From: Fibrobacter sp.
Lineage (GTDB): Bacteria; Fibrobacterota; Fibrobacteria; Fibrobacterales; Fibrobacteraceae
Reading direction: 5' to 3'
NCBI GenBank assembly: GCA_024399065.1
Contig: JAKSIB010000011.1
Coordinates: forward strand, 1-64,000
DNA length: 64,000 nt
Shown here: piece after piece, positions 38,416 through 49,883 of the stretch
Position numbering within the stretch: position 1 is the first letter of the stretch
Layout: each line of letters starts with the position of its first letter
Notes under the pieces: generated by a model
What the model saw: only the letters and a program-made list of their open reading frames with translations
What the model was told of the DNA's origin: nothing
Databases searched by the model: none
Translations under genes and position numbers: made by a program

Positions 38416-39744
38416 TTACCTTTTTGCAGCTTCTGAAACTTCGCGGAAGGTAACGCCAGCCTTTTCGGCAACTTCCTTCACGCTTTCGAATTCGGGTTTA
38501 CACTTTTCGATGTCGCCCAGTTTGCACTTCTTAACTTTCACTGTTCCATAGGGAGTTTCTACGTCGGCAAAAGTCCGTCCCATACAGGTGCGGGTGACGG
38601 GATAACGACGGATGCCCACCGTATTCGTGTGACGCAAAATGGCGGTTTCCACCTGGGGAAGCTTTTCGCTATCCGCAAGAGCGTGAAGAACGACGGCCGG
38701 GCGGTTCTTCTTCATGTAGCACGGAACAAAGTAAACGTCCTTGGCTCCAGCTTCGAAAATCTTGTCCATGGCAAGACCCAGTTCTTCGGGACTCTGGTCA
38801 TCGATATTGCATTCCACCATGAAGACTTCATCACCCCCGCGATTTTCATCTTCAACACTTTCGATGATTTGGGCACGCAGGAAATTGGCTCGACCGAAAT
38901 CGCGTTTGCCGAGTCCGATGCCGGATTTCAAAATCTTGTAACTCACAGGAAGTTTTTCGCAGGTACGGATAGCGGCTACCACGCCGATTCCTGTGGGAGT
39001 TACCATCTCGCCTTTGGTATCTGTAATGTGGAGCGCAATGCCTGCGGATTCTGCAATGCTTGCCACCGCAGGAACAGGAATCGGGAGCATTCCATGCTGG
39101 GTCTGCACAAATCCGGAACCCTCGTTAAGGCCCGTCACCACCACTTGAGAAACGCCTTGAGTTTCCTGCAGGTCTTCTACCAAAATAGCCACCGCCATAA
39201 TATCCACGATGGAGTCAATGGCACCTACTTCGTGAAAATGGACATCTTCTACTGCAACGCCGTGAGCCTTCGCTTCGGCCTGGGCAATCATCAGAAAAAT
39301 TTTCTTGGCAAGGGCAAGGGCGTTCTGGGAAAGGGTACCATGGCTAGCCACATGTTCCAAGATACCGTAGCATTCCTTTAGATGTCGATGCTCGTGGGAG
39401 TGATGGTGTTCGTGACTGTGTTCATGGTTGTGGTGCTCATGCTCATGGTGGTGATCGGCACATTCCTCATGGGAATGTTCATGGTGATGTTCTACGTAGC
39501 ATCCTTCATGGGCGTGAACATGATCTGCGCTTTCTTCGCCATGATGGGTATGCACGTGAACATCAAAGGTCGCCCCGGCAATACTGTAAGAATTACCACG
39601 ACCGAAATGGCAGTGCATTCCCTCAAGATGCATGCTGTTGATGGCGGCATCCAGCTTTTCACGGGATGCGCCCAAATCCAGCAAGGCGGCAACAGTCATA
39701 TCGCCACTGATTCCACAAGATCCGTCCAGATAAAGATATTTCAT
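38416..39744 (-). CDS. larC: Nickel insertion protein LarC
   Basis: This 442-residue cytoplasmic protein inserts nickel, using CTP, into the pincer nucleotide to give the NPN cofactor (family knowledge). It starts MKYLYLDGSCGISGDM, has VEDVHFHEVGAIDSIVDI, and a C-terminal half (~270-440) of the LarC2 type (ECNIDDQSPEELG, VKKCKLGDIEKCKPE). It is a single uninterrupted frame; in Lactobacillus plantarum larC needs a frameshift. Residues 63-121 are exceptionally His-rich, a probable nickel-holding insert. It follows larB with only two bases between. Confidence 0.95.
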   Translation of the reverse strand: MKYLYLDGSCGISGDMTVAALLDLGASREKLDAAINSMHLEGMHCHFGRGNSYSIAGATFDVHVHTHHGEESADHVHAHEGCYVEHHHEHSHEECADHHHEHEHHNHEHSHEHHHSHEHRHLKECYGILEHVASHGTLSQNALALAKKIFLMIAQAEAKAHGVAVEDVHFHEVGAIDSIVDIMAVAILVEDLQETQGVSQVVVTGLNEGSGFVQTQHGMLPIPVPAVASIAESAGIALHITDTKGEMVTPTGIGVVAAIRTCEKLPVSYKILKSGIGLGKRDFGRANFLRAQIIESVEDENRGGDEVFMVECNIDDQSPEELGLAMDKIFEAGAKDVYFVPCYMKKNRPAVVLHALADSEKLPQVETAILRHTNTVGIRRYPVTRTCMGRTFADVETPYGTVKVKKCKLGDIEKCKPEFESVKEVAEKAGVTFREVSEAAKR

Positions 39745-39746
39745 AA

Positions 39747-40457
39747 TTACTTAATCCTCAGCATACGGCAAGCACTTACGGCGGCTCCAAAACCGTTGTC
39801 GATGTTCACCACGGTAACGCCCTCGGCGCAGGTATTCAGCATTGTTAGAAGTGGTGCGACACCTTGAAACGAGGCGCCGTAGCCAACGGATGTCGGCACT
39901 GCAATCACGGGTGCTTTTACGAGCCCAGCAATGACACCAGCCAGCGCCCCTTCCATTCCTGCCACGGCAATAACAACATCCGCCTTGCGAATTTCATCAA
40001 TTTTGGAAAGCAAACGATGGAGGCCGGCAATGCCAACATCATAATGTCGCGAAACCTTGGCTCCAAAAAATTCAGCGGTCATGGCAGCTTCTTCAGCGAT
40101 GGGCAAATCGGCTGTTCCCGCGCAGCAGACTGCGATGGTTCCGCCAAGTTTTCCTGATTTCTTTGAAGCGTTGGAATGATCACCCTTGACTGTTTTTATG
40201 GAGATGATTTTTGCAGTTTCGTTATAGCAAACTTGCGGCATTTCGCTTTTTACAAACTCGTACTGTTCGGCGCTACACTTGGTACCTAGAACAGCGCAGC
40301 CATTCTCCTTGAAGGTTTGGAGAATTTTCAGAAGTTGTTCCTTTGTTTTTCCGGCGCAGTAGATTGCCTCGGCTGTACCAGTACGTTTTTCACGGCTGAT
40401 ATCCAGCTTGGCGAAGCCAATGTCTTCATAGCGTTCATTTGCAAGAGTATTCTTCAT
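39747..40457 (-). CDS. larB: Pyridinium-3,5-biscarboxylic acid mononucleotide synthase LarB
   Basis: This 236-residue enzyme carboxylates the pyridinium ring of nicotinic acid adenine dinucleotide and hydrolyses it, the first step of NPN synthesis. It has the PurE-like C-terminal fold: GTIAVCCAGTADLPIAEEAA, VAGMEGALAGVIAGLV, PTSVGYGASFQGVAPLLTML, and NIDNGFGAAVSA. Length and motifs are typical. It lies 28 bases after tatC and directly before larC. Confidence 0.95.
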   Translation of the reverse strand: MKNTLANERYEDIGFAKLDISREKRTGTAEAIYCAGKTKEQLLKILQTFKENGCAVLGTKCSAEQYEFVKSEMPQVCYNETAKIISIKTVKGDHSNASKKSGKLGGTIAVCCAGTADLPIAEEAAMTAEFFGAKVSRHYDVGIAGLHRLLSKIDEIRKADVVIAVAGMEGALAGVIAGLVKAPVIAVPTSVGYGASFQGVAPLLTMLNTCAEGVTVVNIDNGFGAAVSACRMLRIK

Positions 40458-40485: not shown

Positions 40486-41400
40486 TTAGTTGGGTTTCCA
40501 CTTGTCTGCATTTCGCTCTGTTCCCACCTGGTAGGGGGATGAGATCTTTGTAAAGTCTACATCATCCTGGGAATCTTGATTTGCAGATTTCTGTGTCGCG
40601 GAATCTGAAATTGACGTTTCCGAACTTTCGGTTTTTGATTCCACGCGAACGGGGGAATTTTCTTCATTACATTCCTTGAACTGTTCGCCTTTATATTTTC
40701 GTGCAGCAAACAAACCCGCTTCAAAAAGTAGATAGGTAGGAGCGCCTAGAATCAGCTGGCTAATAATATCCGGCGGAGTCAGCAAAGCCGCCAACACAAG
40801 GATGGCCACCACTACGTAAGGGCGGGCATGGCAAACGGTTTCATAGTAAACAACGCCAGAGCGAATCAAGGCGTAAGTCACCAGCGGGAACTGGAACATG
40901 CATCCAAATGCAAGGGAAAGCCACAGCGCCAAGGTGACGATGTTTTCCACACCGAAAATTGGCTGTAGAGTTTCGCTTTCAAAACTCATGCCGAATCGCA
41001 CCACCAGCGGAAAGCAAATCCCCAGGCAGAACACCACGCCCGAAATAAAAAGCCCGCTGGTCATCCACACGATAGAACGAACAAACTTCCGTTCGTTTTC
41101 GTAAAGGCCCGGCAGCACGAACTTCCACAAGTTCCAGGCAATGTATGGAGAACAGATGACGCAATCCATAAGTGCCGCGATTTTTAGTTGCAACAGGAAC
41201 ACTTCCATTGGGGAAAAGTAATGGAGGGTGGCACCGCTCTGGGCAACAAGCTCTGCGCTGAACCAGTCAAGTACATGGGACGACAACAAAAACATCGGGA
41301 TAATCCCGATGCCTAGCGCCACAAAACAGTGAATCAGCGCCGTACGCAAGGCCTCCAAATGAGAGACCAACGTCTGTTCCTGATCAGCTTTCGAAGACAA
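40486..41400 (-). CDS. tatC: Sec-independent translocase protein TatC
   Basis: This 304-residue inner-membrane protein has six segments. The N-terminal cytosolic recognition region is SHLEALRTALIHC, and SPMEVFLLQLKIAALM follows. The last ~75 residues (~230-304) form a charged tail absent from many TatC proteins. TatC binds twin-arginine signal peptides. The start is a TTG (no ATG fits) nine bases after the tatA stop, with AGG nearby. No tatB is present. The adjacent Tat-signal DUF362 genes are natural candidates for cargo. Confidence 0.93.
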   Translation of the reverse strand: MSSKADQEQTLVSHLEALRTALIHCFVALGIGIIPMFLLSSHVLDWFSAELVAQSGATLHYFSPMEVFLLQLKIAALMDCVICSPYIAWNLWKFVLPGLYENERKFVRSIVWMTSGLFISGVVFCLGICFPLVVRFGMSFESETLQPIFGVENIVTLALWLSLAFGCMFQFPLVTYALIRSGVVYYETVCHARPYVVVAILVLAALLTPPDIISQLILGAPTYLLFEAGLFAARKYKGEQFKECNEENSPVRVESKTESSETSISDSATQKSANQDSQDDVDFTKISSPYQVGTERNADKWKPN

Positions 41401-41408
41401 GTCCGAAC

Positions 41409-41639
41409 CTATCTTTCGTCTTTCGTCTCTCGTCTTTCGTCTATTTTGGCTTCTGCTTCGCCGACTTTTTCCACAGTCTTCTGCAGATCTTCAGCTTCTT
41501 CCTTCAGGGCGTCCTTTGCCTTCTTGTATTCGTGCTGGGCACGGCCAAGAGAGCGGGCCAGTTCAGGAATGCGCTTGCCACCGAACAGCAGCAAAACCAC
41601 AACAACAATCAAGATGATTTCTGGAATTCCAAGAGACAT
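41409..41639 (-). CDS. tatA: Sec-independent translocase protein TatA
   Basis: This 76-residue protein has one membrane segment (~5-20), the hinge [16 protein letters not shown] and an amphipathic helix, typical of TatA, which forms the export pore. The C-terminus ([10 protein letters not shown]) is encoded by four tandem 7-base units. The start ATG follows CCGAGG. It is the first gene of the tatA-tatC-larB-larC unit. Confidence 0.93.
41413..41440. repeat. Tandem heptamer at the tatA/tatC boundary
   Basis: Four adjacent copies of TTTCGTC (one as TCTCGTC) lie inside the last codons of tatA and 13 bases before the tatC start. Because the unit is seven bases, a gain or loss of a copy would shift the tatA frame and move its stop relative to tatC. 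Confidence 0.75.
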
Positions 41640-41738: not shown

Positions 41739-42725
41739 TTAGACTTCCACCAGTTTGTACTTACGGGAACCCATCTTATGGTGTTCCATGGCGTCAAGCT
41801 GATGCAAACCTTCGCGGGATTCGATACGTTCCTTCAGGTCGGCAAGTTCCTTAGGCGGAAGCTTGTAAACCATGTCGATGCTAGCCTGGTCCACAGCCAA
41901 AATGTCGGTAGAAGCAAGGATACCGATATCGCGGCAGGTAGGTTCTGCAGCACTGGTGCCTGCACAGTCGCAGTCCACGGACATACGGCGCAGCACGTTG
42001 ATGAAGCACATTTTGCCCTTGAAATGATCGCAGGTTGCCTTGGCGGAGTCGCCCATCAGTTCCATGAACTTGGCGCCCATAATCCAGTCGGCAGAAGAAT
42101 TCACGTCGGAAGTATTCAAGTGGACTTCGCGCTTACCAATCTGGCCGCCGGCGCAACCGATGGCGATGTTCTTCATGGAGCCGCCGAAGCCGCCCATGGC
42201 ATGACCCTTGAAGTGGGTGAACACCACCATGGAATCGTAGTTCAGCATATGCTTGCCCACGTGAAGTTCCTTAAGCCAGTAACCGTCCTTCACAGGAATG
42301 GGAGTTTCGCCATCTTCGTCCATAATGTCCACCACGGTGAACTTGGTGAAGCCATTGACTTCCAGGGCCTTGCGGTGATCGGCGGTAGTATAGCGGCCGC
42401 CTTGATACAGGGTGTTGGTCTCTACGATGGTACTGTTGGGAATAGCCTTCTGCAAGGCTTCATCCCATTCGCGGGGAATAATGTTGGGACCGTTGGGTTC
42501 GCCGGTATGGAGCTTGATGGCCACCTTGCCAGAGATGTTCTGCTTCACCTTTTCGTAAAGTTTCAGAACGCCAGCGGCACTGAGATCCTTGGTAAAATAG
42601 ACGGTAGACACCTTGTCCTCCTCAGAAGTTTTTTCGGGTGCAGAGCCGGAAGCACTGGCGCAATTAGCAAGACCAGCCACAGCAACGGCACCCGCAGAAG
42701 CCTTCAGAAAATCACGACGATCCAT
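41739..42725 (-). CDS. Tat-signal DUF362 protein, copy 1
   Basis: This 328-residue protein has a twin-arginine signal (MDRRDFLK, hydrophobic core to ~25, possible atypical lipobox LANC). DUF362 follows. Conserved features shared with copy 2 are His117-Arg118, THFKGH (His171, His175), GGFGGSMKN with Lys185, His202, and CxC (Cys252, Cys254) with Cys264. His117, His175, Lys185 and His202 have the order and near spacing of LarA His108, His174, Lys184 and His200 (LarA positions from memory). DUF362 proteins are otherwise of unknown function, sometimes linked to Fe-S. RBS AGAGG; a terminator follows. Confidence 0.9.
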   Translation of the reverse strand: MDRRDFLKASAGAVAVAGLANCASASGSAPEKTSEEDKVSTVYFTKDLSAAGVLKLYEKVKQNISGKVAIKLHTGEPNGPNIIPREWDEALQKAIPNSTIVETNTLYQGGRYTTADHRKALEVNGFTKFTVVDIMDEDGETPIPVKDGYWLKELHVGKHMLNYDSMVVFTHFKGHAMGGFGGSMKNIAIGCAGGQIGKREVHLNTSDVNSSADWIMGAKFMELMGDSAKATCDHFKGKMCFINVLRRMSVDCDCAGTSAAEPTCRDIGILASTDILAVDQASIDMVYKLPPKELADLKERIESREGLHQLDAMEHHKMGSRKYKLVEV

Positions 42726-42739
42726 AACGACCTCTTACA

Positions 42740-43747
42740 TTACACTTCGATAATACGATACTTGCGATTGCCCATCTTCAAAGCTTCCATTGCAGGGAGC
42801 TGATGAAGTCCTTCGCGACTTTCAATGCGTTCCTTGATATCCTTCAGTTCGCCAATGGGCAGCTTGTAAACCATGTCTACGCTGGCCTGGTCCACAGCGA
42901 GAATATCGGTGGAAGCGAGAATACCGATGTCGCGGCAAGTGGGTTCGGCAGCGCCAACGCCCGCACAGTCGCAGTCCACGGACATACGGCGCAGCACATT
43001 AATAAAGCACATCTTGCCCTTAAAGTGATTGACGGTTGCCTTGCCGGATTCAGCCATGGCTTCCATGAAGCGCTTGCCGCTGTTGCTCCACTTGGGGTAA
43101 AGTTCCGGCTTTGCATTGTAATCCGGATCTTCCATCTTTTCGTGAATCATCTTCTTGCCCACATTGGCGTCGGCACAGCCGATGGCGATGTTCTTGAGGG
43201 AACCGCCGAAACCACCCATGGTATGGCCCTTGAAGTGGGTCAGCACCACCATGGAATCGTAATTCACGATATGGCCGCCCATGCTCATTTCCTTGAAGTG
43301 CTTGCCGCCAGGAACAGGGAGCATCACCGTACCTTCTTCGTCCATGATGTCCACGGGGCAGAAAGTCCAGCCGTTTACCTTCAAAGTCTCGCGATGCTTT
43401 TCGGTAGTATCGCGGTCGCTGGGATGGTAGTAAGTGTTGGTTTCCACAATGTTGGAATTGGGAATCAGGGCCTGCACAGCCTTCACCCATTCGCGGGGCA
43501 AAATGTTGGGGCCGTTCTTTTCACCGGTGTGAACCTTGATGGCCACCTTGCCGGAAATATTCTGGTTCACCTTGTTGTACAACTTGATGAGACCTTCGGC
43601 AGAAAGATCCTTGGTGAAGTAGACGTTGGAAACATCCTTGCCGGCTTCCTTCACTTCCTGGTTCTTGGGCTTGCCAAAAACGGGAGTAGCCATGGCGCTG
43701 ATCAAAGCAGCAGAGCCTACAGTCTTTATAAAATCACGACGATCCAT
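42740..43747 (-). CDS. Tat-signal DUF362 protein, copy 2
   Basis: This 335-residue paralogue of the downstream gene has a clear twin-arginine signal (MDRRDFIKTVGSAALISAMA, cleavage near VFG). The pattern His118-Arg119, His175, Lys185, His202 and Cys259/261/271 is fully kept. It differs by an ~11-residue insert around 205-220. The two are tandem duplicates and possibly form a heteromer. The start codon directly follows the stop of the 99-residue membrane protein, with AAGGTGG upstream. This indicates tight coupling. Confidence 0.9.
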   Translation of the reverse strand: MDRRDFIKTVGSAALISAMATPVFGKPKNQEVKEAGKDVSNVYFTKDLSAEGLIKLYNKVNQNISGKVAIKVHTGEKNGPNILPREWVKAVQALIPNSNIVETNTYYHPSDRDTTEKHRETLKVNGWTFCPVDIMDEEGTVMLPVPGGKHFKEMSMGGHIVNYDSMVVLTHFKGHTMGGFGGSLKNIAIGCADANVGKKMIHEKMEDPDYNAKPELYPKWSNSGKRFMEAMAESGKATVNHFKGKMCFINVLRRMSVDCDCAGVGAAEPTCRDIGILASTDILAVDQASVDMVYKLPIGELKDIKERIESREGLHQLPAMEALKMGNRKYRIIEV

Positions 43748-44047
43748 TTAAGCCACCTTATGGAAACGACCCTTGGGGTCTTTAATGAGGAGCATGGCAA
43801 GCCAAATCACAAGGCCAAATGCCACAGCGGAGAAACCCAGGAAGGCGTCATTCAGCATGTCGCCTGCAGCCGGGGTGAAAAATTCAGCACGAAGTTCTGC
43901 ATATTCAAAAATGGCATCCACGAACCACATGAGGGATGCGCCCCAGTACATGTAGCACAAGGGAGAAAGATGCATCTTGTTTTCGACATCGCGGTACCAA
44001 AGAGCGGTGCAGATAATCGCCGCAAAAACAGTGATGAGAAGGGTCAT
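43748..44047 (-). CDS. Small three-segment membrane protein
   Basis: This 99-residue protein has hydrophobic segments at ~1-18, 30-50 and 67-88 and a basic C-terminus (KGRFHKVA). It has aromatic-rich LSPLCYMYWGASLMWFVDAI. It is not a recognised family. Its ATG overlaps the TAA of the upstream gene, and its stop touches the DUF362 start. It may anchor or supply electrons to the exported DUF362 proteins; this is inferred from coupling only. Confidence 0.8.
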   Translation of the reverse strand: MTLLITVFAAIICTALWYRDVENKMHLSPLCYMYWGASLMWFVDAIFEYAELRAEFFTPAAGDMLNDAFLGFSAVAFGLVIWLAMLLIKDPKGRFHKVA

Positions 44048-44442
44048 TACTTACCTGCCTTTACTTCTGCAGGAACAGCCTTGTGGAACTTGCTGCGGAC
44101 AGTCATGAGAGCGGCCCAAGCCACCGTAACGAGGCCAGCCATGGATGTGCCCACGGTAGCAACCTCGTGCCACATCTGACTCATGGCTTCGGGGCTGGAA
44201 GCCGCAGTCAAAAACGGATAAAAGGCCTGCAGTTCGCCGTGCCAGACATGTTCAAAAGCCAACAGAACAGAACCGCCCCAAAGCATCTTGGAAAGAACCT
44301 TCAGATTCTTGCAGACAGCCTGCTTCTTGGTAGCAACCTGAAGATCAGCACCCTGCTTGGCAGACTTGTCGGTCTGTTCCAAAACTATGGTGGTGACGGT
44401 GGTAACGATGGCTTCTGCCATGGGGGCGATAAAACAGCACAT
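44047..44442 (-). CDS. Small membrane protein, first gene of the DUF362 unit
   Basis: This 131-residue protein has segments around 1-22, 50-65 and 95-115, and a histidine pair in AFEHVWHGELQ that could bind a metal or heme. It is not a recognised family. The start has AAAGAGG eight bases upstream and lies about 45 bases after the MerR-style promoter at 44486-44516. It shares the last base of TAA with the next ATG. Confidence 0.82.
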   Translation of the reverse strand: MCCFIAPMAEAIVTTVTTIVLEQTDKSAKQGADLQVATKKQAVCKNLKVLSKMLWGGSVLLAFEHVWHGELQAFYPFLTAASSPEAMSQMWHEVATVGTSMAGLVTVAWAALMTVRSKFHKAVPAEVKAGK

Positions 44443-44485: not shown

Positions 44486-44516
44486 AATATACCACCTAGA
44501 GTTAACTCTAAGACAA
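44486..44516 (-). promoter_or_regulatory. MerR-type promoter/operator B
   Basis: The minus strand has -35 TTGTCT (44511-44516), an exact 19-base spacer containing the perfect palindrome TAGAGTTAACTCTA, and -10 TATATT (44486-44491). The overlong spacer with an inner dyad is the hallmark of MerR-family activation. Twenty-five of 31 bases match promoter A at 45439-45469. Confidence 0.85.
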
Positions 44517-44556
44517 GCCCTTTTTAATTTTTTTGAAAAAAAGAGCCAAAAAATTT

Positions 44557-45393
44557 CTATTTCACCAAGGCTTCGTTCAAGCTTCCGGTACGGTAGCCTC
44601 GTTCATCCAAGGAAATTTCCTTAAAACCAAGATTTGTAAAACAGGAACGAATCTCAGCCTGATTTTTGTAGAAAAGCGGGAACTGGTCCGGAAGGATTTC
44701 TATGCTAGCCATATAGGTTTCTGCAGCAGGCGATTTTTGCGGAACAAGACGGCAACGAACTCGATATTGAACAAAACCCAAATCCTGCAGATACTGCTCG
44801 GCCCGCTCCACCAGCCGCAATTTTTCTTCTGTAATCTGTTCTCCGTAAGGAATGCGGCTGGCAAGGCAGGCAAACGAGGGCTTGCTCGCCGTCGGGAGCC
44901 CAAGTTCCCGGGACAACGTGCGGATGCCTGCCTTGGTGAGGCCCGCCTCACGGAGCGGGCTCTTCACGTTCAGTTCCGCAATCGCCTTCAATCCCGGGCG
45001 GTAATCTCCAAGGTCATCCACATTGGAGCCTTCACAAACTGCAGGAATCCCATGCTCCGCGGCCGCCCCGATGATGGCCTTAAAAATCGAACGCTTGCAC
45101 ACATAGCAACGGTCAGGAGGATTCTCCCGAAAGCCGTCCACATCCATCTCGTTAAAATCCAGGACCAAATGGAGAATGCCTTCTGCCTTGCAAAAATCCA
45201 GAGCCTCCTGAATTTCGCGGCCAGGAACCACCCTGGACTTTATCGTAACGGCAACCGCATTCTCTCCCAGCACATCATGAGCCACCTTCAACAGAAACGT
45301 AGAATCCACGCCGGCAGAATAAGCCACGGCAACCTTGCCGAGACTTCTCAACTGGCATTTCAACAACTCGAATTTCTGATGCAGTTCATCCAT
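44557..45393 (-). CDS. larE: ATP-dependent sulfur transferase LarE
   Basis: This 278-residue cytoplasmic enzyme adenylates the pyridinium nucleotide and transfers sulfur to form the two thiocarboxylates of the pincer. The PP-loop is YSAGVDSTFLL (usually SGGVDS), with a CYVCKR pair. Cys176 in FACLASRIPYG coincides with the sacrificial cysteine position of the L. plantarum enzyme (from memory). ATG 45393 is preferred over TTG 45399. It is driven from promoter A and is separate from the next gene. Confidence 0.93.
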   Translation of the reverse strand: MDELHQKFELLKCQLRSLGKVAVAYSAGVDSTFLLKVAHDVLGENAVAVTIKSRVVPGREIQEALDFCKAEGILHLVLDFNEMDVDGFRENPPDRCYVCKRSIFKAIIGAAAEHGIPAVCEGSNVDDLGDYRPGLKAIAELNVKSPLREAGLTKAGIRTLSRELGLPTASKPSFACLASRIPYGEQITEEKLRLVERAEQYLQDLGFVQYRVRCRLVPQKSPAAETYMASIEILPDQFPLFYKNQAEIRSCFTNLGFKEISLDERGYRTGSLNEALVK

Positions 45394-45438
45394 TTTCAAA
45401 AACCTGGAATTTTCAAAACCTTTAAAAAACGCCTCTTA

Positions 45439-45469
45439 AATATAAGATCTAGAGTTGACTCAAAGTCAA
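45439..45469 (-). promoter_or_regulatory. MerR-type promoter/operator A upstream of larE
   Basis: The minus strand has -35 TTGACT (45464-45469), a 19-base spacer with the imperfect dyad GAGTCAACTC, and -10 TATATT (45439-45444). It lies between larE and the divergent MerR gene, so it may control both. Confidence 0.85.
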
Positions 45470-45525: not shown

Positions 45526-45990
45526 ATGGGATTTTCTATCGGAGAAGTTGTAAAGAAAACAGGACTTAGCGCCCACACCCTGCGCTACTACGAAAAGGAA
45601 GGGCTCCTCCCCTTCGTCACCAAGAGCAGCTCTGGTCTCCGCGTTTACACTGAATCCGATTTGGGCTGGCTCACCATGATTGAATGCCTCAAGTCCTCGG
45701 GCTTGCAAATCAAGGAAATCGCACAGTACATCAAGTGGTTCCAAATGGGCGATTCCACCTTGGCCGAACGCGTAGAAATGTTCCGCAAGCGCAAGGCCGC
45801 CATCGAAGAAGAAATGGCCAACTTGCAGATAGTGCTGGATAAAATCACCTACAAGACCGCCCTTTACGAAGAAGCCCTCAAGTGCGGCAGCCTGGATACT
45901 GCCACCAACCTTCCCAAAATGCAAAAGCTGAAGAAGAAGCTTTTCGAAAAACCCACCGACTTCGACAAGATCATGGACCAGGTCGGCTAA
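45526..45990 (+). CDS. MerR-family regulator (AdhR/NmlR-like)
   Basis: This 154-residue DNA-binding activator has a winged HTH (FSIGEVVKKTGLSAHTLRYY), wing (SSSGLRVYTESDLGWL) and dimer coiled coil (~80-120). Cys54 in MIECLKSSG sits where AdhR/NmlR proteins keep a reactive cysteine (from memory). Those respond to aldehydes or other electrophiles; whether this one does is unproven. Promoters A and B beside it have the matching architecture. ATG 45526 follows AGGCAGGA. It converges with the pectate-lyase-like gene, 17 bases apart. Confidence 0.9.
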   Translation: MGFSIGEVVKKTGLSAHTLRYYEKEGLLPFVTKSSSGLRVYTESDLGWLTMIECLKSSGLQIKEIAQYIKWFQMGDSTLAERVEMFRKRKAAIEEEMANLQIVLDKITYKTALYEEALKCGSLDTATNLPKMQKLKKKLFEKPTDFDKIMDQVG

Positions 45991-49037: not shown

Positions 49038-49883
49038 TTATCTGGTTTTGACGACGCCGTTGCAGGGCATCACCGGGTCGTCCCAGATGATTTCGCCGAC
49101 GGAGTCCACCACGATGGTTCCGGATTTCGGATTCTTGATGGAAATGACATCGCCCTTCACGTCTGCTTCGACATCGGAGTATTCAAAGGCTAGATCCGCG
49201 CCTTCCATGGTGCAGTTGATGAGCTTCAGGCCCTTGCAATAGCACAGGGGCTGGGTTCCGGAAATCTTGCAGTTTTCAAGAGTCAAGTTTTCAGAGAACC
49301 AGGCGAGATATTCACCCTTCACTACGGAATTTTTAACCGTAATATTTTTGCTGTGCCAGAAGGCATCCTTCGTATCCAATACAGAATCTTCGATAGTCAG
49401 ATTTTCGATGTACTGGAAAGAATACTTGCCTTTCATCTGCACATTTTTCAGGGAGATGTTCGTGCAATCCAGGAAAAGATATTCCGCTTCGATTTCAGAA
49501 TTTTCAAGGGAAATATCCTGACTCTTCCAGCCGAATTCCTGGGAAACAATTTTGCAGTTTTCCAGAGAAATGCGGTTGCATTCACGAACGGCCTTGATGC
49601 CGCCAAGAACACTGTCCTTGATGACACCGTCGTCGGCATACCAAAGGGCAGCGCGGGTGAGTTCATCCATGGAGGATTTTTCCAAGGTGAATTTCTTGAC
49701 GTGCCACATGGGATAGCGCAGAGAAAACTTGCAGTCAATGACATTGATGTCGCGGGCTTCCTTCAGTACAGACTCACCATCGGCGGGGCCTGCGAAAACG
49801 CAGGACACCACGTCGGAATTCTTCAAGTTATATAGGGAGCGTTCTTCGTCGAACTGCTTATTTTCTACCACATTTCGATTCAT
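49038..49883 (-). CDS. DUF3737 right-handed beta-helix protein
   Basis: This 281-residue cytoplasmic protein begins VENKQFDEERSLYNLKNSDV, diagnostic for DUF3737. It consists of ~20-residue beta-helix coils with the repeated pattern NISLKN / NLTIEDS / NITVKNS / NLTLENC. The biochemical function is unknown. There is no signal peptide. It lies seven bases from the convergent reductase gene. Confidence 0.9.
   Translation of the reverse strand: MNRNVVENKQFDEERSLYNLKNSDVVSCVFAGPADGESVLKEARDINVIDCKFSLRYPMWHVKKFTLEKSSMDELTRAALWYADDGVIKDSVLGGIKAVRECNRISLENCKIVSQEFGWKSQDISLENSEIEAEYLFLDCTNISLKNVQMKGKYSFQYIENLTIEDSVLDTKDAFWHSKNITVKNSVVKGEYLAWFSENLTLENCKISGTQPLCYCKGLKLINCTMEGADLAFEYSDVEADVKGDVISIKNPKSGTIVVDSVGEIIWDDPVMPCNGVVKTR

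Follow-up and report, generated by a model that had tools for sequence, protein, structure and literature searches.

The known nickel-pincer cofactor pathway consists of LarB, LarC and LarE, and about 15% of the genomes surveyed in a 2024 paper carry larB, larC and larE and lack larA; the authors propose that in such cases one or more proteins yet to be identified receive the cofactor (PMC11796402). The stretch of Fibrobacter DNA analysed here (64,000 nucleotides, termed the window) brings this question to one locus. Two promoter-like 31-mers flank larE next to a MerR gene, a search of the organism's own genome for the LarA family (PF09861) found no member, and larBCE appear to share regulator, promoters and operon with DUF362 proteins predicted to have a LarA fold. 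Because larBCE would be tied to LarA-fold proteins at all three levels, the question of the cofactor user in larA-less genomes becomes specific: are the DUF362 proteins the users? The features concerned are as follows.

45526-45990, plus strand: MerR-family regulator of 154 aa, NmlR/AdhR-like, with Cys54 (PF13411, NCBIfam NmlR, solved relatives)
45439-45469, minus strand: putative MerR-type promoter of larE; -35 TTGACT, 19-base spacer with dyad GAGTCAACTC, -10 TATATT
44557-45393, minus strand: larE, sulfur insertase of nickel-pincer cofactor synthesis (TIGR00268, 300 bits, cut-off 150)
44486-44516, minus strand: putative MerR-type promoter of the membrane/DUF362/Tat/larBC genes; -35 TTGTCT, 19-base spacer with dyad TAGAGTTAACTCTA, -10 TATATT
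44047-44442, minus strand: membrane-type protein 1, small and conserved; matches no Pfam family
43748-44047, minus strand: membrane-type protein 2, small and conserved; matches no Pfam family
42740-43747, minus strand: DUF362 protein a; RR-type N-terminus (MDRRDFIK), predicted LarA-like fold, H175/K185/H202
41739-42725, minus strand: DUF362 protein b, 65% identical to DUF362a, with Tat signal
41409-41639, minus strand: TatA (PF02416)
40486-41400, minus strand: TatC (PF00902)
39747-40457, minus strand: LarB, nickel-pincer cofactor synthesis (NF033503, 281 bits, cut-off 175)
38416-39744, minus strand: LarC, nickel insertion into the pincer cofactor (PF01969, 400 bits; LarC1 and LarC2 above cut-off)

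The sequence-only reading had claimed two matching promoters, and their coordinates, the TTG(A/T)CT-19-TATATT arrangement and an identity of 25/31 were all confirmed on the minus strand. The 31-mers at 44486-44516 (TTGTCTTAGAGTTAACTCTAGGTGGTATATT) and 45439-45469 (TTGACTTTGAGTCAACTCTAGATCTTATATT) have AACTCTAG in common. The window contains two exact TTGWCT...TATATT combinations, both with 19 bases between the hexamers, against a chance expectation of ~0.013 for any one spacing; the remaining spacings between 10 and 30 gave none. With two mismatches allowed, the hexamers alone were found in chance numbers (6 in the window against 5.8 expected) and this loose pattern was dropped as evidence; the signal thus resides in the shared palindromic spacer sequence. 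A scoring matrix derived from 15 genus sites located elsewhere, which include other loci of genomes G009 and G025 and neither a window site nor an identical copy, assigned the two promoters 47.2 and 44.2 bits, as against 5.8 bits for the third-best window site and 6.7 bits for the best of 10 Markov-1 shuffles. With 19 bases and a central dyad, both sites agree with the 19-20-base, dyad-containing spacer that characterises MerR-type promoters, and no sigma-70 promoter-like site with a spacer of 16-18 bases was found upstream of larE or membrane gene 1. The promoter pair is real and better than chance.

The adjacent regulator displays a MerR helix-turn-helix at its N-terminus and exceeds the Pfam cut-offs of PF13411 (72.9 against 21.6 bits), PF00376 (54.3 against 28.2) and PF09278 (29.3 against 25.4). 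Its best NCBIfam match is the NmlR equivalog (NF041849), and since the score of 91.8 bits lies under the curated cut-off of 175, the protein is termed NmlR/AdhR-like and not NmlR. The best solved relatives are chains 5d90, 5d8c and 5e01, of which 5e01 carries the name HI_0186; we take all three to be NmlR structures. Residue 54 is a cysteine that aligns with the cysteine of the H. influenzae HI_0186 chain. It is retained in 18/18 aligned sequences, a set that includes near-duplicates (L038, and L046 and L128 from one genome), while Cys118 is present in 2/18, leaving Cys54 as the sole conserved cysteine. The proposal, made from the sequence alone, that the neighbouring MerR protein carries the Cys54 of the AdhR/NmlR type is supported by these comparisons. 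H. influenzae NmlR is among the proteins named in a review (PMC9909328).

Searching the whole genome with PF13411 and PF00376 revealed two MerR genes, one of them full-length (45526-45990). The second (C1:201463 onward; L008:2440-2685) is a 100-aa frame that keeps the helix-turn-helix and is then internally deleted, approximately residue 57 joining directly to the C-terminal tail. It is probably a decaying paralogue, and was ruled out as the true reader of the sites because of this deletion.

The distribution of the sites was examined in the organism's own genome (3.82 Mb, 118 contigs) at up to three mismatches, using the reversed pattern as control; those close relatives of the window genes that carry a name are Fibrobacter MAGs. 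Six sites were found against no control matches, with a pattern that, like the one used across genomes, itself fixes the spacing at 19. Besides the two in the window, one site lies 5' of an amidohydrolase gene, one 5' of an aldo/keto reductase gene, and the remaining two point in opposite directions, each towards one of two flavodoxin genes that enclose them. The narrow larE-DUF362 regulon first envisaged was accordingly widened. At up to two mismatches, sites were identified in 15 of 60 genomes (own and relatives), all of them within the 37 genus genomes, again with no reversed-control matches. Orthologues of the regulator (E<1e-40) occur in 16/37 genus genomes, and sites are present in 13 of these 16 carriers against 2 of the 21 other genus genomes (Fisher 1.9e-5, a value that overstates the association because the genomes are related). 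The three carriers lacking a pattern match (G012, G028, G035) nevertheless retain the dyad and TATATT 5' of membrane gene 1, where only the -35 is weak; the two genomes with sites and no orthologue at E<1e-40 are G001 and G032. The dyad and TATATT precede membrane gene 1 in nine aligned loci, and a promoter is located at the lar/DUF362 unit in all eight LarC-positive genus genomes, of which the G025 cluster is not independent since it is 99% identical to the window cluster. Genome G009 has its two lar/DUF362 promoters on contig 46, whereas its regulator, 67% identical, is encoded on contig 4. Sites are also positioned 6 bases 5' of larB in G034, G008, G020, G006, G030 and loci L127 and L128 (the latter on the same contig as the G008 locus), and 5' of merR itself in six genomes. 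Further sites within the genus precede flavodoxin genes, a gene for a sulfatase-factor/flavodoxin fusion and one for a lipoprotein-like hydrolase. At the yak MAG locus L129, a lar/DUF362 cluster has no MerR gene in its 17 kb and a best site with six mismatches.

Of the earlier suggestion of a local regulon joining larE to the membrane/DUF362 unit, the shared control was thus supported comparatively, by a promoter that tracks the MerR orthologue and stands at the unit in 8/8 LarC-positive genomes, while its local character was not, with six sites spread over the genome. That the two 31-mers might be ordinary or duplicated sigma-70 promoters, alike for reasons unrelated to MerR, is hardly credible: two-mismatch hexamers do occur at chance level in the window and promoters can be duplicated along with genes, but the palindrome and its 19-base spacing, poor for unaided sigma-70, recur before unrelated genes in 15 genomes, in this genus only, and follow the MerR orthologue. 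A MerR regulon that includes larE and the DUF362/Tat/larBC unit under the adjacent regulator is, in our judgement, very probable.

Two peculiarities of individual sites were recorded. At L044:10120-10160, L046:13082-13120 and L042:13551-13590 the -10 element ends 6 bases before the ATG of a larB or flavodoxin gene, so close that the corresponding mRNAs may be leaderless. In the own genome, the amidohydrolase 3' of the site at L007:5548 looks broken (L007:5579-5720), as the frame that opens 7 bases after the -10 with a signal-peptide-like start reaches a stop after ~32 codons. The amidohydrolase frame starts only further on and lacks the first 52 positions of the family.

MerR proteins distort DNA to realign promoters with 19-base spacers, and NmlR responds to formaldehyde and other oxidant stress (PMC9909328). 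By analogy, a dimer of the adjacent NmlR/AdhR-like protein would occupy the AGAGTYAACTCT dyad within a spacer that exceeds the ordinary length by two bases. Modification of Cys54, probably by an electrophile, would then distort the DNA and align the -35 and -10 elements, allowing RNA polymerase to start. The first promoter would drive larE, and the second membrane proteins 1 and 2, DUF362a, DUF362b, TatA, TatC, LarB and LarC, such that the nickel-pincer cofactor, the DUF362 proteins and the export machinery would be made together. Elsewhere in the genome the same regulator would drive the aldo/keto reductase, flavodoxin and amidohydrolase genes, further targets with which a carbonyl/quinone stress response fits. 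Binding of the MerR protein to DNA, activation of both promoters and the identity of the inducer are all inferred here.

The inducer is probably an electrophile (an aldehyde, quinone or other) sensed via Cys54. The competing view is that the promoters answer a metal, a NimR-like MerR protein boosting cofactor synthesis when nickel is available. The controlled genes do make a nickel cofactor, and in cluster L132, outside the genus, a CbiM-type transporter adjoins a polyferredoxin gene and larB. Against this, the nearest solved structures are of NmlR type, the other members of the regulon are the aldo/keto reductase, flavodoxins and amidohydrolase instead of metal transport genes, and Cys54 is the only conserved cysteine (18/18, with Cys118 in 2/18), which makes a metal sensor less likely. 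Although a nickel-responsive MerR protein exists in the form of H. influenzae NimR (PMC9909328), we regard a nickel response as improbable at this locus. The open-licence papers found on Fibrobacter, MerR and nickel were, judged by title, unrelated. The electrophile-responsive system proposed here resembles the NmlR/AdhR branch (HI_0186 5e01, 5d8c, 5d90) in its MerR_1 domain, aligned cysteine, 19-base spacer with central dyad, and reductase and flavoprotein targets. It differs in the score of its regulator, under the NCBIfam NmlR cut-off, and in targets that would include the nickel-pincer pathway, DUF362 and Tat in place of adhC/estD. NmlR/AdhR-type control would constitute a regulatory setting for nickel-pincer cofactor genes.

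The eight genes 3' of 44486 share a strand, no gap between them exceeding 99 bases, and membrane gene 1 to larC presumably form one transcript, a view based on strand and gaps; terminator-like matches (13 against 10.0 in shuffled sequence) are near the shuffled level. LarB, LarC and LarE all exceed curated cut-offs, with NCBIfam scores of 167 against 90 bits for LarC1 and 146 against 50 bits for LarC2. Judged by these profile matches, larE, larB and larC constitute the complete known nickel-pincer cofactor pathway, the whole of which would be under this control because the DUF362 unit extends through TatA, TatC, LarB and LarC. Similar to the lactate racemase operon larABCE, LarB, LarC and LarE are all above curated cut-offs; the arrangement is unlike that operon in having no LarA found in the genome, putative MerR-type promoters, and Tat and DUF362 genes in the unit. 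LarA (PF09861) was found in none of the 37 genus genomes, while LarC occurs in 8/37 and the DUF362 type in 11/37, all eight LarC carriers having DUF362 (Fisher 4.3e-6, among related genomes). Since the lar genes, DUF362 and the sites travel as one cluster, their co-occurrence may reflect few evolutionary events.

LarE (44557-45393) contains a CxxC motif (DRCYVCK) and a later cysteine (SFACLA). By sequence it fits the [4Fe-4S] three-cysteine type described in PMC13329287 rather than the single-cysteine sacrificial type. A DUF3737 gene is present near the window cluster (49038-49883), and another lies inside the DUF362/LarCE run of L132 (L132:5212-6075).

The structure of DUF362a was predicted with AlphaFold (pLDDT 75, pTM 0.78), and the 16 best Foldseek matches of the model are lactate/malate racemases, LarA-like enzymes and the structural-genomics chain 4nar (E of 5.7e-6 to 1.2e-3). 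VIA-align gave 12 LarA-family or LarA-like entries with Z of 13.4-15.2 and rmsd of 3.0-4.1 over 195-222 residues, the next match being a methyltransferase at Z 5.0. As modelled, DUF362a has a LarA-like fold. When DUF362 was aligned with four LarA proteins from relatives using hhalign (E 9.6e-4, at a probability of only 22%), H175, K185 and H202 fell on His, Lys and His of LarA, which we take to be the catalytic base H174, the cofactor-bearing Lys184 and the nickel ligand His200. No DUF362 residue aligned with the first catalytic His of LarA, the alignment covering residues 153-202 only. All 12 sequences examined (8 DUF362 and 4 LarA) contain H-x9-K and, 15-17 residues further along, another His. 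In LarA, His108 and His174 serve as acid/base, with a lysine linkage and a histidine ligand (PMC12611868), and the cofactor adds about +450 Da to the protein (PMC11796402).

At the level of sequence the two families are distant. At E<=0.001 DUF362a and DUF362b have no PF09861 match and only PF04015 (DUF362b also the Tat signal model), and a profile of the DUF362 alignment found no LarA among PDB sequences, the likeness having come only from the fold and hhalign comparisons. The window proteins thus resemble LarA enzymes (DUF2088, PF09861; 5huq, 6c1w, 6d6z) in the Z scores of the DUF362a model and the H-x9-K...His pattern, and differ from them in lacking a PF09861 match, in an identity of ~11-15% and in their predicted export. 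The kinship itself is already known, as DUF362 and DUF2088 belong to one Pfam clan (CL0471) and a published LarA tree took DUF362 as its outgroup (PMC11770544). Among the open-licence papers listed, no function for DUF362/COG2006 was apparent and no nickel-pincer role for DUF362 was found; none of the matches listed linked larB, larC or larE with twin-arginine.

These comparisons make the DUF362 proteins candidates, put forward tentatively, for the missing users of the nickel-pincer cofactor. The main interest of the locus lies here, as it links LarA-less nickel-pincer synthesis to LarA-fold DUF362 proteins with predicted Tat export. In the scheme that we advance, likewise as a possibility short of probable, Tat-exported DUF362 would represent a second class of nickel-pincer enzyme, loaded by LarBCE in the cytoplasm, exported folded via the TatAC of the same operon and acting in a MerR-controlled electrophile response, and would explain at least some larBCE+ larA- genomes. 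Loading of the cofactor would precede Tat export of folded DUF362, the task of which may be periplasmic 2-hydroxy acid or related carbonyl chemistry.

It is, on the other hand, fairly likely that DUF362 functions without the cofactor and shares no more than its regulation with larBCE, whose true client would be a different, unrecognised protein, an assessment that concerns the cofactor user and not the regulon, with which it is compatible. Three Bacteroides genomes devoid of LarC have ferredoxin-type DUF362 proteins, 27-29% identical, that keep H73/H171/H175/K185/H202, and the conserved His/Lys set is therefore no proof of cofactor binding. UBA4309 and UBA4375 contain DUF362 and TatAC and no LarC, and plasmid loci of Selenomonas, Parabacteroides and Roseburia encode 41-51%-identical DUF362 proteins with no lar gene in ~21 kb. 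Conversely, of the 13 relatives outside the genus that are LarC-positive, 7 gave no match to LarA or to DUF362, from which it follows that LarBCE can serve other partners, and the window DUF362 proteins themselves lack the PF09861 match noted above. What argues for DUF362 as the user is its presence in 8/8 LarC-positive genus genomes, with LarA in 0/37, together with the shared operon and promoters, the modelled LarA fold and the His/Lys/His residues aligned with those of LarA.

Among control genomes, Synechococcus elongatus and Haloferax volcanii gave matches to LarC and DUF362 and none to LarA, and Corynebacterium glutamicum and Methanocaldococcus jannaschii gave matches to LarC and to neither of the other two. 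The LarC search of plasmids gave 98 records, and the DUF362 search of genome contigs only 10 loci.

A related cluster outside the genus is found at L132, in a MAG labelled Alphaproteobacteria, where a 60%-identical Tat-type DUF362 shares a run with a cupin, carboxymuconolactone decarboxylase, FMN reductase, aldo/keto reductase, LarC and LarE, after which come a MerR gene, polyferredoxin, the CbiM-type transporter and LarB. This run begins after TTGACTTAGAGCCCGCTCTAAATCGTAGCCT, a TTGACT-19-TAGCCT dyad with six mismatches to the Fibrobacter consensus, compared with 9-12 for the best in 30 shuffles, and by eye the polyferredoxin gene is preceded by a TTGACT-19-TAGGCT promoter. In Selenomonas ruminantium pSRC1 (L173), a 51%-identical DUF362 similarly stands beside flavodoxins, aldo/keto reductases, an amidohydrolase and a carboxymuconolactone decarboxylase, but the run starts with a TetR-type regulator and no lar or MerR gene was found in the 21-kb stretch. 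This cluster is largely the same module, perhaps under a different regulator.
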